Shown here: positions 10,129 to 17,278 of the stretch, piece by piece
Layout: each line of letters opens with the position of its first letter
How positions within the stretch are numbered: position 1 is the stretch's first letter
Origin: Planctomycetota bacterium
Lineage (GTDB): Bacteria > Planctomycetota > Brocadiia > Brocadiales > Scalinduaceae
Direction: 5' to 3'
Length of the DNA stretch: 39,940 nt
Assembly: GCA_022570935.1 (NCBI GenBank)
Contig: JACZYU010000006.1
Span: forward strand, 1-39,940
Position numbers and translations under genes: made by a program
The notes under the pieces: generated by a model
Databases searched by the model: none
What the model was told of the DNA's origin: nothing
The model's input: the letters and a program-made list of their open reading frames with translations, nothing else

Positions 10129-10557
10129 TTATCTTTTTGTATCGTCGATTAATTTTTGAATTATTTTGGAGTCGATTAATTCTGCTTTAGTACTGAATCC
10201 GTCGAGAAGGGCAAGATCGCAAATATTATTTATCTCTCTCGGCACCCCTCCGGTGTGAGAATAAATCTTCTCAATAGCCTCTTTTGTAATTATATTCTTC
10301 TTCAAGCCGGCAACTTTCAATCGAAATATTATATATTTTATCGTGTCGTTAAAATCAAGAGGTTTTAAATGATATCTTATAGATATCCTGGAATCGAGTT
10401 GTTTTATCTTTTCAACCTTTTCTCGAAGTTCGGGTTGTCCTATAAGGATTAACGTTACGAGAAATTTGTCATTCAGTTGGAAGTTTAAGAGCAATCTCAA
10501 TTCCTCCAGGGTTGTATCACTTTCTATGGCTTGAGCTTCATCAATTACAACTATGGT
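10129..10557 (-). CDS. ExeA/GspA-like AAA ATPase, C-terminal part (after frameshift)
   Basis: About 142 residues beginning at the slip site: Walker B VVIDEAQAI, then LRLLLNFQLNDKFLVTLILIGQPEL (sensor region), LDSRISIRYHLKPLDF and a C-terminal helical lid (TGGVPREINNICDLALLDG). It continues, in the -1 frame, the N-terminal fragment at 10551-10928. Together they give about 265 residues, normal for the ExeA-type ATPases associated with type II secretion and pilus assembly. The first in-frame start alone would be at 10500, which removes Walker B, so an independently translated fragment would be inactive. Confidence 0.75.
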   Translation of the reverse strand, partial: TIVVIDEAQAIESDTTLEELRLLLNFQLNDKFLVTLILIGQPELREKVEKIKQLDSRISIRYHLKPLDFNDTIKYIIFRLKVAGLKKNIITKEAIEKIYSHTGGVPREINNICDLALLDGFSTKAELIDSKIIQKLIDDTKR

Positions 10558-10928
10558 TTTTTTCCTTTATTCAGATTTTCCAACATCGTCTCATTAAGGG
10601 CGTGAAGCATGCCAGCTTTGTCGTCAACTGATTTTTCAACACCTAATTGATAAAGAATTTCTTTAAGAAGGTCAGTAGGGGAGAGGCATGGATTAGCAAT
10701 AAGTCCTATTTCATATTTATCACTTGAAAGCTCCTGAATAAAAACCCGACTAAGAGTTGTTTTTCCACAACCAATCTCGCCTGTTAACATTGCCGCCCCT
10801 TTCTGCGATTTTGTTGCATATAAAAGCCTCATTAGCGCCTCTTCATGTTGTGCCGAACGGTATAAAAAGCGAGGATCGGGAACATTCTCAAAGGGAAGGG
10901 TATGAAGTCCCCAATATTCTTCGTACAA
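10551..10928 (-). CDS. ExeA/GspA-like AAA ATPase, N-terminal part
   Basis: 125 residues starting MYEEYWGLHTLPFENVPDPR, the hallmark N-terminus of this family, with SAQHEEALMRLLYA and the Walker A loop GEIGCGKTT at about residues 50-58. It ends NLNKGKKP-stop right after seven A residues (T7 at 10557-10563 on the plus strand). A -1 slip on A AAA AAA joins it exactly to the Walker B fragment. This could be programmed frameshifting, polymerase slippage, a recent inactivating deletion or a homopolymer error. It lies upstream of the HD-GYP gene. Confidence 0.75.
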   Translation of the reverse strand: MYEEYWGLHTLPFENVPDPRFLYRSAQHEEALMRLLYATKSQKGAAMLTGEIGCGKTTLSRVFIQELSSDKYEIGLIANPCLSPTDLLKEILYQLGVEKSVDDKAGMLHALNETMLENLNKGKKP

Positions 10929-12832: not shown

Positions 12833-14146
12833 ATGACTTCAAAAGTAAAGGTAAGGTTTCCTCCAAGTCCAACAGGTTTCCTGCATATTGGAGGAGCAAG
12901 AACAGCTCTTTATAACTGGCTTTTTGCCAGACACAATAACGGGAAATTTATTCTGAGGATCGAAGATACTGACCAACAACGTTCTACTGAAGAGGCGACT
13001 CAAGCGATCCTGGACAGTTTGACATGGCTGGGTTTGGACTGGGATGAAGGCCCGTATCATCAGAGCGAGAGGCTTGAAATTTACAGTGAATACGTGGAGA
13101 AATTGCTGAAGGAGGGCAAGGCTTTTCATGTGGATGATCCTGAAAAAGGCAGGGCAGTACGTTTTAAGCTAACAGGTGAGCTTACGGATTTTGATGATTT
13201 GGTTCATGGAAACATAAAATCCGACACCTCGCTTATCGAAGACTTCGTTATCCAGAAAGCGGATGGTTTTCCCACTTATAATTTTGCATGTGTTGTTGAT
13301 GATGGAGTAATGGAAATAACACACGTGATTCGGGGTGATGACCATTTGTCTAATACGCCAAGGCAGGTTGCCCTTTATAAAGCTTTGGGTTTTGAATTAC
13401 CAAAGTTTGCACACATCCCGATGATTCTCGGAGAGGATGGCTCCCGTATGAGCAAGCGTCACGGGGCAACGTCTGTAACTGAATATCGCGAAAATGGTTA
13501 TTTGCCGGACGCCTTGGTTAATTTTATTGCACTTCTTGGCTGGTCACCCGGACATGATCAAGAGTTATTAACCAGGCAGGAGATGATAGAGAAGTTTACC
13601 CTGAAACGAGTCAATAAGACCAGCGCACGCTTTGACTATACAAAGCTTGACTGGATGAACGGCAAGTACATTCAGGGCTTACCGGTTGAAGACCTCGTCA
13701 GTAAATTACGCCCATATATAAAAGATGCAAATTTGGATAATGGAGTATTTACAGATGAATGGTTGTACAAGTTGGTAGAATTATATAAGGAAAGGTTTAG
13801 AACATTACCAGAGTTTGTAACGCTGGCATCCCCATTCTTTACTGATGAAATTGAATATGAAGATGCTGCAGTACAGAAACATCTGAAAAAAGGCAATCCT
13901 TCTCTGATAAAAGATGCTTATAATAAACTGAAAGAGGTCAAGGATTTTTCATCAATTACAGAACTAGAAGATTGTTTACGGTCGATAACAATCGAACACA
14001 GTGTTGGCTTTGGCAAATTGGCACAGCCTATAAGGGTTGCGATTATAGGTAAAAGTGCAAGCGCTGGAATCTTTGAAACTTTAGAACTGTTAGGTAAAGA
14101 AAAGACACTAAAACGACTGGAATATACAATAAATACTTTTTTGTAA
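12833..14146 (+). CDS. gltX: Glutamyl-tRNA synthetase lacking the zinc-binding segment
   Basis: 437 residues; bacterial GltX is usually about 465-490. The class I HIGH-type motif PSPTGFLHIGGARTAL is near residue 10, and RMSKRHG (KMSKS type) is at about 205-211. The rest aligns well with the family (LRIEDTD, PTYNFACVVDD, THVIRGDDH, LGWSPG). Between EGKAF and RAVRF, where E. coli GltX has about 40 residues including the CxC...C zinc ligands, there are only a few residues (HVDDPEKG), so this copy cannot bind zinc there. It is in frame with no sign of decay. No clear Shine-Dalgarno. It may also charge tRNA-Gln if gatCAB is present elsewhere. Confidence 0.95.
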   Translation: MTSKVKVRFPPSPTGFLHIGGARTALYNWLFARHNNGKFILRIEDTDQQRSTEEATQAILDSLTWLGLDWDEGPYHQSERLEIYSEYVEKLLKEGKAFHVDDPEKGRAVRFKLTGELTDFDDLVHGNIKSDTSLIEDFVIQKADGFPTYNFACVVDDGVMEITHVIRGDDHLSNTPRQVALYKALGFELPKFAHIPMILGEDGSRMSKRHGATSVTEYRENGYLPDALVNFIALLGWSPGHDQELLTRQEMIEKFTLKRVNKTSARFDYTKLDWMNGKYIQGLPVEDLVSKLRPYIKDANLDNGVFTDEWLYKLVELYKERFRTLPEFVTLASPFFTDEIEYEDAAVQKHLKKGNPSLIKDAYNKLKEVKDFSSITELEDCLRSITIEHSVGFGKLAQPIRVAIIGKSASAGIFETLELLGKEKTLKRLEYTINTFL

Positions 14147-14153
14147 AATTTAA

Positions 14154-14717
14154 ATGACAATCAGGGCCTTCATTGCAATAGAAATAGATAGTGGGATTAA
14201 AGACAGGCTATCTGAATACCTGAATCAGTTAAAGAAAACAGGCGCTTCTGTTAAGTGGGTTGCTCCTGAGAATATCCACTTAACTTTGAAATTTATTGGA
14301 TATATAGAGGAGGAAACTCTTCCAGACTTGAATAAAATTATTAGTGATGCCGTCTCTTGTCTGGGCCCATTCACTATTAGTATAGGAGATATTGGTGCAT
14401 TTCCAAATTTCAAGAAACCGCGTGTAGTTTTTGTTTGTGTACAGGATAAAGGAAATAATCTTTTAAATATCTATGAAAGGCTCGACAAGGGTATTGAGAA
14501 ACTTGGAATAAAAAGGGAATCCAAAAAGCATGTCGGGCATATTACACTTGGAAGAATTAAATCACAGAAAAATATATCCAAACTTACAAGTGTTTTAAAT
14601 TCCGGAACAAAATGTTCCTTTGGCGTTGAAAAGGTAAGTTATATCTCTCTGATGCAAAGCAAGTTAACTCCAGCAGGGCCAATTTATACGAAATTAAACA
14701 ATTTTATGCTAAATTAA
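14154..14717 (+). CDS. thpR: RNA 2',3'-cyclic phosphodiesterase (LigT-like)
   Basis: 187 residues of the 2H phosphoesterase family. The two catalytic HxT motifs are HLTLKFIG (about residues 41-48) and HITLGRIK (about 125-132). N-terminal MTIRAFIAIEIDSGIKDRL and KWVAPENIHLTLKF are typical of bacterial ThpR/LigT, which opens 2',3'-cyclic phosphates on RNA ends. It begins 7 bases after gltX and ends one base before the next ATG, so it is part of a tight operon of translation/RNA-related genes. No Shine-Dalgarno is visible. Confidence 0.92.
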   Translation: MTIRAFIAIEIDSGIKDRLSEYLNQLKKTGASVKWVAPENIHLTLKFIGYIEEETLPDLNKIISDAVSCLGPFTISIGDIGAFPNFKKPRVVFVCVQDKGNNLLNIYERLDKGIEKLGIKRESKKHVGHITLGRIKSQKNISKLTSVLNSGTKCSFGVEKVSYISLMQSKLTPAGPIYTKLNNFMLN

Positions 14718-14718
14718 A

Positions 14719-15243
14719 ATGAAAAAAGGTAAACTCAAATATTCTCTAGAACACAACTGGGTTGAGCTTAAGAGAAAAGTTGTAACAATTGGTGTAACTG
14801 ATTACTTTATAGATGAACTTGGCGACCTGATAGATCTTTGCTTACCAAAAGTTAATGAGGATATTATTCTTGGTATTTCTTATGGTGAAATAGAATCCAT
14901 TAATGTTCTTCATGATTTAATAGCACCTTTAATGGGTGCGATTGTAAAGGTAAACTTAGATTTGGTTACCACTTTAAGGGTATTGCAGAAGAATCCATTT
15001 GATGATGGTTGGCTCATCAAAGTCAGGATAACAGACCCTGAGCAACTTGATGCCCTTATGGATGAAGATGAATATGAAGAGTACAAGAAAAGTATTAAAA
15101 AAAAGGGGAAAGAAGCTGTAAAGAAAAAAGTAAAGGTAGAGGAAAAAGAGAAGGCAAAAGCAAAAGAAGGGAAGGATAAGGCAGAGAGGAAGAAAAAAAC
15201 AGAGCAGAAAAAGAAAGTAGTGAGAAAGAGTAAGAAGCGGTAA
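14719..15243 (+). CDS. GcvH-like protein without the lipoyl lysine, with a lysine-rich tail
   Basis: 174 residues. Residues 1-~115 match the glycine cleavage H-protein fold: YSLEHNWVELK, IGVTDYFIDELGDLIDLCLP, ISYGEIESINVLHDLIAPLMG, NPFDDGWLIKVRITDPEQLDAL. The lipoyl-carrying lysine of the ESVKAVSD-type motif is replaced by Asn62 (codon AAT at 14902-14904), so it cannot carry the aminomethyl-lipoyl arm. Residues ~120-174 form a highly basic Lys/Glu tail. The fold is probably reused for another task, perhaps binding a protein or nucleic acid; that is inference. It lies one base after thpR, without a Shine-Dalgarno, in the gltX-thpR-tyrS cluster. Confidence 0.85.
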   Translation: MKKGKLKYSLEHNWVELKRKVVTIGVTDYFIDELGDLIDLCLPKVNEDIILGISYGEIESINVLHDLIAPLMGAIVKVNLDLVTTLRVLQKNPFDDGWLIKVRITDPEQLDALMDEDEYEEYKKSIKKKGKEAVKKKVKVEEKEKAKAKEGKDKAERKKKTEQKKKVVRKSKKR

Positions 15244-15300
15244 ATGAGTTTCATTAAAAAAAAATATTACTTCCATTGACAGAATGTGCTTGACTTAAAA

Positions 15301-16041
15301 ATGCCTGATAATAAACGTTGGAATATAGGAGATATATTTAAGGTTTTCCTGTTTTATTTCTTCATGATGCTGGTTGGAATACCTGTTTTTTTAAGAGTAT
15401 CAAAACAAATATTTAGATTTGATTTAATAGAAGTATTTGGGCAGAACACTATACTCCTTGGTCTGTCTCTAGTTGTAAATATTTTGACCTGTCTGTATGT
15501 TTTCTATATTATTCGGGTAGGATATGGTTTGCCTGTAACATCATTAGGTTTTACAGTTCACAACTGGAAACGTGATGTGATAATTGGCCTTAAATATTAT
15601 CTGGTAGTTCTTCCTGTTATAATTCTAGCCGGTTTTGTAGTAGATTTTGTTCTAAGAATATTTGGTATAGTACCTGAGCAGCAAGACATTATTAATAAAA
15701 TCCTGAATGAGGACTCTTTGGGAGTCCTTACTTTCATGTTTTTCTTTGGTATGTTAGCTGCACCTGTTGTTGAGGAGCTTCTTTTCAGGGGATTTCTTCA
15801 GACTGCAGTAAGAACTACTTTCGGCAAGCAAAAAGCCATCTTAATTAGTGGATTCCTGTTTGCTTTGGTACATCTAAATGCCCATGTGTTTTTGCAGATA
15901 TTTATCCTGGGACTTCTGTTAGCTTATCTATTTGAGAAGACTAAATCATTAATAGCACCAATAACTGTCCATATCTGCCACAATACTGCTATATTAGCTT
16001 TCTTGATTTCTTTTAAACACATTCTAAAAAGTCATGTTTAA
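15301..16041 (+). CDS. CPBP family intramembrane metalloprotease
   Basis: About 246 residues with six or more hydrophobic segments (VFLFYFFMMLVGIPVFL, LGLSLVVNILTCLYVFYII, YYLVVLPVIILAGFVVDFVL and others). The CPBP (Rce1/abortive-infection) signatures are present in order: EELLFRGFLQ (EExxxR), FALVHLNAH (FxxxH) and HICHNT (HxxxN type), supplying the Glu and His metal ligands. In bacteria these membrane proteases have varied roles; no substrate can be inferred. I list the ATG at 15301; a GTG at 15286 adds five residues and neither has a clear ribosome-binding site. It overlaps tyrS by 8 bases. Confidence 0.85.
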   Translation: MPDNKRWNIGDIFKVFLFYFFMMLVGIPVFLRVSKQIFRFDLIEVFGQNTILLGLSLVVNILTCLYVFYIIRVGYGLPVTSLGFTVHNWKRDVIIGLKYYLVVLPVIILAGFVVDFVLRIFGIVPEQQDIINKILNEDSLGVLTFMFFFGMLAAPVVEELLFRGFLQTAVRTTFGKQKAILISGFLFALVHLNAHVFLQIFILGLLLAYLFEKTKSLIAPITVHICHNTAILAFLISFKHILKSHV

Positions 16042-17278
16042 GGGCATTGAAGAACAACTGAATATTATTAAACGCGGAGTTGTAGAAATCGTCCGCGAAG
16101 AAGAACTCATCGAGAAACTGCAGAGGTCAATAAAGACCAAAACCCCCCTGCGAGCTAAATTAGGCCTTGATCCTACCGCACCGGATATACATATTGGAAA
16201 TGCTGTCCCGATTCACAAGTTACGTAATTTCCAGGAACTTGGCCATACGGCAGTATTAATAATTGGAGACTATACTGCAATTGTAGGCGATCCGTCTGGT
16301 GTGAATAAGACACGGCCTCAACTTTCACACGAAGACATAAAGGAGAATACGAGAACGTACTTAGATCAAATAGGAAAGATACTGGATATAGACAAGACTG
16401 AAATCCGTTACAATAGTGAATGGTTTAAGGAGATGAAATTTACCGATGTAATTACATTAGCCTCAAAGATGACAGTTGCCAGGATGCTGGAGAGAGATGA
16501 TTTTTCGAAAAGATATAGTTCTGGAGTTCCCATAAGTCTCCATGAATTTATTTATCCATTAATGCAGGGATATGATTCAATAATGGTAAGAAGTGATATT
16601 GAAATCGGTGGTACAGATCAGATATTCAGTCTGCTTGTTGGCCGTGATCTCCAAAGGGATAGAAATATGGAGCCACAGGTGGCACTCACCACTCCCTTAC
16701 TGGAAGGAATCGATGGGAACAAAAAGATGAGTAAAAGCCTGGGCAATTATATAGGCATATATGAAGAGCCAAAAGAAATCTTTGGTAAAACAATGAGGAT
16801 TGGTGACGATCTTATGCGTAAGTATTTTGAGTTGGCAACTGACATGACTATGGAAGAAATAGATAGTACATTAAAGGAGCATCCACGCCAGGCAAAGATT
16901 GTATTGGGGAAGGCTATTGTAAGCCGGTATTACAATGAGGAGATAGCCCGGGAAGTGGCGGAAGAATTCGACAGAGTTCATAAAGAACATAAACTTCCGG
17001 ACAACATTGCTAAATTAGATATAAAACTTCCACTATTAAAATTAGATGCGACAGCGACAATTAGCACAACTTATAAAATATGGTTAGTAAAATTATTGGT
17101 TGATCATGGCTTCGCATCTACTAACGGAGAAGCAAGGAGGTTGATTTCTCAAGGAGGAGTAAGTATTGACAATCATAAATATACAGATCCAGCACAAGAA
17201 GTTGATATAAAAAGCGGAATGATATTAAAAGTAGGAAAACGCCGATTTGCAGAGATTGTTATAACTCAACCTGGCTGA
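16034..17278 (+). CDS. tyrS: Tyrosyl-tRNA synthetase
   Basis: 414 residues, class I synthetase. The HIGH-type motif appears in PTAPDIHIGNAVP (about residues 48-60) and KMSKS in KKMSKSLGNYIG (about 229-240). LGHTAVLIIGDYTAIVGDPSG and the tyrosine pocket region LMQGYDSIMVRSDIEIGGTDQ are clear. The C-terminal ~65 residues form an S4 RNA-binding domain (LLVDHGFASTNGEARRLISQ). The sequence is of the type often named TyrZ rather than the E. coli-like form. It is the last gene of the argC-gltX-thpR-gcvH-like-CPBP-tyrS run, overlapping the CPBP gene by 8 bases, and its stop codon forms the loop of a terminator hairpin. Confidence 0.96.
   Translation: MFKGIEEQLNIIKRGVVEIVREEELIEKLQRSIKTKTPLRAKLGLDPTAPDIHIGNAVPIHKLRNFQELGHTAVLIIGDYTAIVGDPSGVNKTRPQLSHEDIKENTRTYLDQIGKILDIDKTEIRYNSEWFKEMKFTDVITLASKMTVARMLERDDFSKRYSSGVPISLHEFIYPLMQGYDSIMVRSDIEIGGTDQIFSLLVGRDLQRDRNMEPQVALTTPLLEGIDGNKKMSKSLGNYIGIYEEPKEIFGKTMRIGDDLMRKYFELATDMTMEEIDSTLKEHPRQAKIVLGKAIVSRYYNEEIAREVAEEFDRVHKEHKLPDNIAKLDIKLPLLKLDATATISTTYKIWLVKLLVDHGFASTNGEARRLISQGGVSIDNHKYTDPAQEVDIKSGMILKVGKRRFAEIVITQPG

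Follow-up and report, generated by a model that had tools for sequence, protein, structure and literature searches.

A GcvH-like paralogue without the lipoyl lysine, conserved in the Brocadiia

A GcvH-like gene in the window

The window, i.e., the whole stretch of 39,940 nucleotides that was analysed, is contig C198 of a Candidatus Scalindua genome (G000). The gene under study lies at 14719–15243 in a co-directional cluster, with the following features:

12833–14146, + strand: gltX-like gene, upstream in the co-directional cluster (name read from sequence)
14154–14717, + strand: thpR, RNA 2',3'-cyclic phosphodiesterase (family match)
14719–15243, + strand: lysine-less GcvH paralogue, 174 amino acids, an intact open reading frame from ATG to TAA
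14893–14895, + strand: codon GAA, Glu59, three residues upstream of the lost lysine, invariant in 49/49 lysine-less (K-less) copies
14902–14904, + strand: codon AAT, Asn62, the lipoyl-lysine position by alignment to lysine-bearing (K-bearing) GcvH
15094–15240, + strand: Lys/Glu-rich tail past the H-protein domain, residues 126–174, predicted helix of low confidence
15286–16041, + strand: CPBP family intramembrane protease, found downstream of the paralogue in the Scalindua family
16034–17278, + strand: tyrS-like gene, likewise downstream in the Scalindua family (name read from sequence)

Gene names here and in the neighbourhoods compared below were read from the sequence, except for thpR, CPBP, DUF1611, DUF123, mutS, mnmA and the semialdehyde dehydrogenases.

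The initial annotation described a well-kept H-protein fold, and three analyses agree with it. The Pfam GCV_H model (PF01597) matches residues 6–125 over model positions 1–121 of 122 (4.6e-27, 94.8 bits), the core of the AlphaFold model has pLDDT values mostly above 90, and the best Foldseek matches are solved H-proteins at about 1.0–1.3 Å over about 120 residues. The overall fold that a functional GcvH requires is therefore present, and the paralogue also keeps His12, Trp98, Asn79 and Pro70. The curated gcvH model (TIGR00527, cut-off 115.85 bits) gives the protein only 90.5 bits and five relatives 85–104 bits, compared with 157 bits for the canonical copy of the same genome. The protein also lies far below the cut-off of the "not_gcvH" model, which likewise covers GcvH-like proteins (TIGR03077, 40.6 against 144.05 bits).

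Loss of the lipoyl lysine and retention of hairpin residues

Asn62 was confirmed as the residue in place of the lipoyl lysine, since its alignment column matches the lysine of the ESVK motif in L001, the K-bearing GcvH of its own genome. A functional GcvH carries the lipoyl-accepting lysine in ES(V)K, and this lysine is absent from the window protein and from all relatives of the gene; the paralogues have N, D, E, S, H, R, Q or A at the position and K in none. Without the lysine, classical lipoylation at that site is impossible. Judged by the missing residue, the paralogue would have lost lipoylation.

The residues around the lost lysine are largely kept. Glu at −3 is found in 49/49 K-less and 91/92 K-bearing proteins; of the K-less copies, 40/49 retain Gly at +11. 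In the bovine H-protein, both Glu(−3) and Gly(+11) play a part in how the lipoylating enzyme recognises its substrate. Their retention suggests that the hairpin face of the paralogue may still dock a partner, but Glu(−3) may also be retained for structural reasons alone.

Conservation across the Brocadiia

The paralogue is present in 69/75 Brocadiia genomes searched, and K was found at the position in none of these 69, so the lysine loss reported for the window is conserved in related genomes. It was not found in G412, G413, G417, G419, G423 and G428, among which only G417 and G419 are more than 90% complete (contamination 6–7%). Outside the class, K is present in 17/17 GcvH loci from other Planctomycetota (L102–L118), which had been chosen for a high score against the K-less profile, and the non-Brocadiia loci from the genome scan are likewise K-bearing. 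A lysine in close relatives would have spoken for a sequencing error or a recent mutation. No relative of the gene carries one, and this explanation was ruled out because the loss is class-wide.

In a tree of 49 K-less and 92 K-bearing rows, built with column 62 excluded, the two sets are split by one change (SH-aLRT 94), and in a more careful tree of 65 rows one change was recovered in 90% of the bootstrap trees; these results are limited to 119 columns, with the root not inferred and some long branches. Adding five rows left the Brocadiia K-less copies together on a single side of one branch (98/98), with L260, from another planctomycete family, as a separate loss. Closest to the K-less copies among the K-bearing proteins are GcvH of planctomycetes; one of these, L214, comes from the Brocadiia genome G419, where it adjoins gcvP and where the K-less copy was not found. 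The canonical GcvH of Brocadiales is placed elsewhere in the tree, away from the K-less group.

The core of the paralogue is under purifying selection: pairwise core dN/dS is about 0.13–0.32 in Scalindua pairs, close to the 0.07–0.28 of canonical gcvH, and the tail evolves faster than the core. One relative (G015, locus L048) has a frameshifted copy, which might speak for a decaying pseudogene or an error. The adjacent thpR reading frame of G015 is also short, so read errors are likely there, and no comparable break was seen in the other paralogue-bearing genomes. With purifying selection and a single branch for all sampled copies, there is practically no chance that the gene is a pseudogene or that the lost lysine is an artefact or a recent mutation.

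Independence from the glycine cleavage system

The lysine-bearing gcvH that the initial annotation proposed to look for elsewhere in the genome was found on contig C146 of G000, between gcvT and the N-terminal part of gcvP. This second GCV_H gene encodes a canonical GcvH with ESVK and passes the curated gcvH cut-off. The association with gcvT/gcvP expected of a functional GcvH is thus seen for the canonical copy, whereas the paralogue was never found beside gcvT or gcvP in the neighbourhoods of its Brocadiia relatives.

Four genomes that are 92–94% complete, G023, G403, G418 and G420, retain the paralogue, and gcvP was not found in them; this result is to be read with care, as gcvP absence in draft genomes can reflect incompleteness. 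No GCV_H match besides the paralogue was obtained in G403, G418 and G420, and the only other GcvH of G023 is of a third, "EAGK" type. The less complete G424, G425 and G426 agree, with only a weak gcvP match in G426. Since the paralogue is kept where gcvP and canonical GcvH were not found, it does not appear to depend on the glycine cleavage system. We also considered it as a stand-in for a missing GcvH and rejected this, because a canonical copy is present and the paralogue persists in genomes where gcvP was not found. A structural or inhibitory H-protein that still serves glycine cleavage would agree with the unchanged fold and with the complete-looking gcv locus of most Brocadiales. This role is nevertheless largely refuted by the gcvP-less genomes and by the separation from gcvT and gcvP, and we consider it very improbable.

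The lipA gene scores above its cut-off in 65/75 genomes, including those without gcvP, and its presence in nearly all genomes indicates that lipoate is probably still made. The paralogue could therefore be considered a pseudo-substrate or regulator, which would dock LipA, LipB, a ligase or a lipoate-dependent complex, could not itself be modified, and would modulate lipoylation. The invariant Glu(−3) despite the missing acceptor, the distribution of lipA, and the occurrence among the closest Foldseek folds of H-proteins whose structures were solved bound to lipoyl synthase and lipoate ligase are consistent with such a function. However, lipA occurs in almost every genome of the class, which makes its co-occurrence little informative; no lipoate gene was found beside the paralogue in the neighbourhoods examined, and Gly(+11) is lost in 9/49 copies. 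We regard a pseudo-substrate role as rather unlikely.

Gene neighbourhood and C-terminal tail

The gene had been described as lying without spacing between its neighbours, which is correct upstream, where 1 base separates the thpR stop from the paralogue ATG, but not downstream, where 42 bases lie before the listed CPBP start. The cluster with two tRNA synthetases was also recovered in the form of the gltX-like and tyrS-like genes; however, the order gltX-thpR-paralogue-CPBP-tyrS is kept in, and specific to, the Scalindua family. Even there, thpR was not found beside the paralogue in two genomes, G005 and G007; only about 75–130 bases separate gltX from the paralogue in these. The order is miaA-paralogue-yhaM in family f2 and paralogue-dgcN-dgcA in f3 and f5, in f5 with DUF123 and mutS, both divergent. 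The cca gene lies within about 1 kb of the paralogue in f4, asd adjoins it in f6 and f103, and mnmA is upstream in one f6 genome. No neighbour was common to the whole class among the families compared, and a conserved RNA operon was rejected because the neighbours change from family to family. As a separate observation in the window, an ExeA-like ATPase at 10129–10928 on the − strand is split between two open reading frames in different frames, which points to a broken gene or an assembly error.

The added basic tail of about 55 residues is confirmed in the window protein, where 55 residues follow Tyr119 with a net charge of +18; AlphaFold models residues 116–171 as a low-confidence helix. The tail charge reaches +38 in Scalindua and is about +7 to +26 in f5, +2 to +4 in f2 and zero in f3 (L230). 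Conservation of the tail thus holds only in part: it is basic in nearly all sampled Brocadiales, but mostly neutral or acidic in f6. As the charge varies by family, basicity of the tail is for the most part an elaboration of Brocadiales and does not define the paralogue; its highly variable length and sequence and its non-basic form in f6 suggest that it may be a lineage-specific extra. A tail shared with other Scalindua proteins was rejected, since the tail query matched itself alone in G012 and nothing in G000. Related K-bearing planctomycete GcvH proteins have strongly acidic tails; among the K-bearing loci of other Planctomycetota, L102–L106, L109, L110 and L112–L115 have long, strongly acidic C-terminal tails with a net charge of about −10 to −35, opposite to the basic tail of the paralogue.

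The RNA- or ribosome-linked role suggested by the initial annotation was evaluated with these data. As an RNA- or ribosome-associated factor, the paralogue would bind RNA through its basic tail and work with neighbouring RNA-processing and tRNA genes. The gltX, thpR and tyrS neighbours in the Scalindua family, miaA and yhaM in f2, cca in f4, mnmA in f6 and the strongly basic tail of most Brocadiales agree with this role. On the other hand, dgcN/dgcA or asd adjoin the gene in other families, thpR is missing alongside in two genomes, the tail of f6 is not basic, and housekeeping operons commonly hold tRNA genes. A dedicated RNA or ribosome factor is therefore considered unlikely.

Probable non-catalytic reuse of the H-protein fold

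The earlier proposal of a reused fold is supported by a single, class-wide tree group that is under purifying selection and never carries K, by the separate canonical GcvH, and by survival where gcvP was not found. Lipoylation has very probably been lost and the paralogue kept for another function. Within this, the paralogue is probably a neofunctionalised, non-lipoylated H-protein that acts by binding rather than by carrying lipoate. An ancient GcvH copy in the Brocadiia ancestor would have lost its lipoyl lysine, and the lysine-less copy would have been retained for a different, non-catalytic task, with lipoate no longer carried on the usual hairpin. The rigid H-fold might then dock a partner protein through the hairpin face and the invariant Glu(−3), a speculative step that we put forward tentatively. 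In Brocadiales, the positive C-terminal helix could add a contact with a polyanion (RNA, DNA, the ribosome or an acidic membrane), although a nucleic acid or the ribosome as the target of the tail is speculative and rather doubtful. Quite improbable is a combined form, in which a class-wide pseudo-H-protein of the anammox lineage docks and regulates, through its retained hairpin face, the machinery of lipoate metabolism or a complex that depends on lipoate, and the Brocadiales tail tethers it to RNA or the ribosome; if true, a dead cofactor-carrier fold would have gained a new role in bacterial regulation.

The loss of a catalytic lysine from a very conserved carrier is stable, and the lysine-less protein is retained across the whole class to which the anammox bacteria belong. 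When metabolism is reconstructed from such genomes, a second "gcvH" gene should not be counted as a glycine-cleavage protein, even though some of these genes score above a GcvH model. The paralogue is also a defined, testable protein for studying what the H-fold can do without lipoate.

Comparison with known GcvH-like proteins

The paralogue resembles GcvH in its complete fold, about 1 Å from solved H-proteins, and in keeping Glu at −3. In contrast to GcvH, it is without the lipoyl lysine, below the curated cut-off, not beside gcvT/gcvP, kept where gcvP was not found and, in Brocadiales, provided with a basic tail. In the open-access papers searched, we found neither a lysine-less bacterial GcvH family nor a paper connecting GcvH, lipoyl groups and anammox bacteria.

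The eukaryotic protein Simiate/Abitram is not known to carry the lysine. Simiate (FAM206A/Abitram) is GcvH-related and has a non-metabolic role in speckles, actin and gene expression (PMC3859600, PMC3986562); it is found only in eukaryotes and is a proposed H-protein descendant with about 20% identity to H-protein (PMC3859600). The Brocadiia paralogue may be a bacterial parallel to this proposed reuse, by analogy, as both would be GcvH-related proteins outside metabolism. LbpA of the sHdr sulfur-oxidation pathway is GcvH-like and outside glycine cleavage as well, but its lysine is strictly kept (PMC6067878) and lipoylated (PMC10332631), a feature that the paralogue does not share. GcvH-L of the SirTM operon of Streptococcus pyogenes is a GcvH-like paralogue outside the usual gcv locus (PMC4518038), and its fold (5a35) is more distant from the Brocadiia paralogue, at 1.6 Å and 21% identity.

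Further Planctomycetota proteins, among them L260 and L291, have a GCV_H domain without the lysine. L260:1453–1926 (− strand) is a GcvH from a different family of planctomycetes; it has an acidic tail and shows a separate Lys-to-Asp loss in a different clade. L291:704–2068 (− strand) joins a receiver domain, a lysine-less GCV_H and a 4Fe-4S domain in one protein, so that the H-fold is fused to signalling and redox domains; such fusions are larger, divergent proteins. At least one independent loss (L260) and the divergent multidomain forms weaken the idea that K-less GCV_H is unique to Brocadiia, and non-catalytic reuse of the fold seems to have occurred more than once in Planctomycetota.

Other K-bearing GcvH types were observed in the same genomes. 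Several Brocadiia have a third GcvH-like type (L044, L047, L051, L052, L057, L060, L065 and L068), in which the lysine lies in SLEAGKYIGPLKA (e.g., L044:4673–5146, + strand) and the gene is often near a ThiF/MoeB-like gene; L044 scores below the gcvH cut-off. In the Scalindua family, two K-bearing types accompany gcvP, with the motifs ESVKAAY and ESVKSVSD, and are represented by L001 and its relatives versus L003–L008, L010 and L011. The two types form separate clades, which suggests that the whole gcv operon was replaced.
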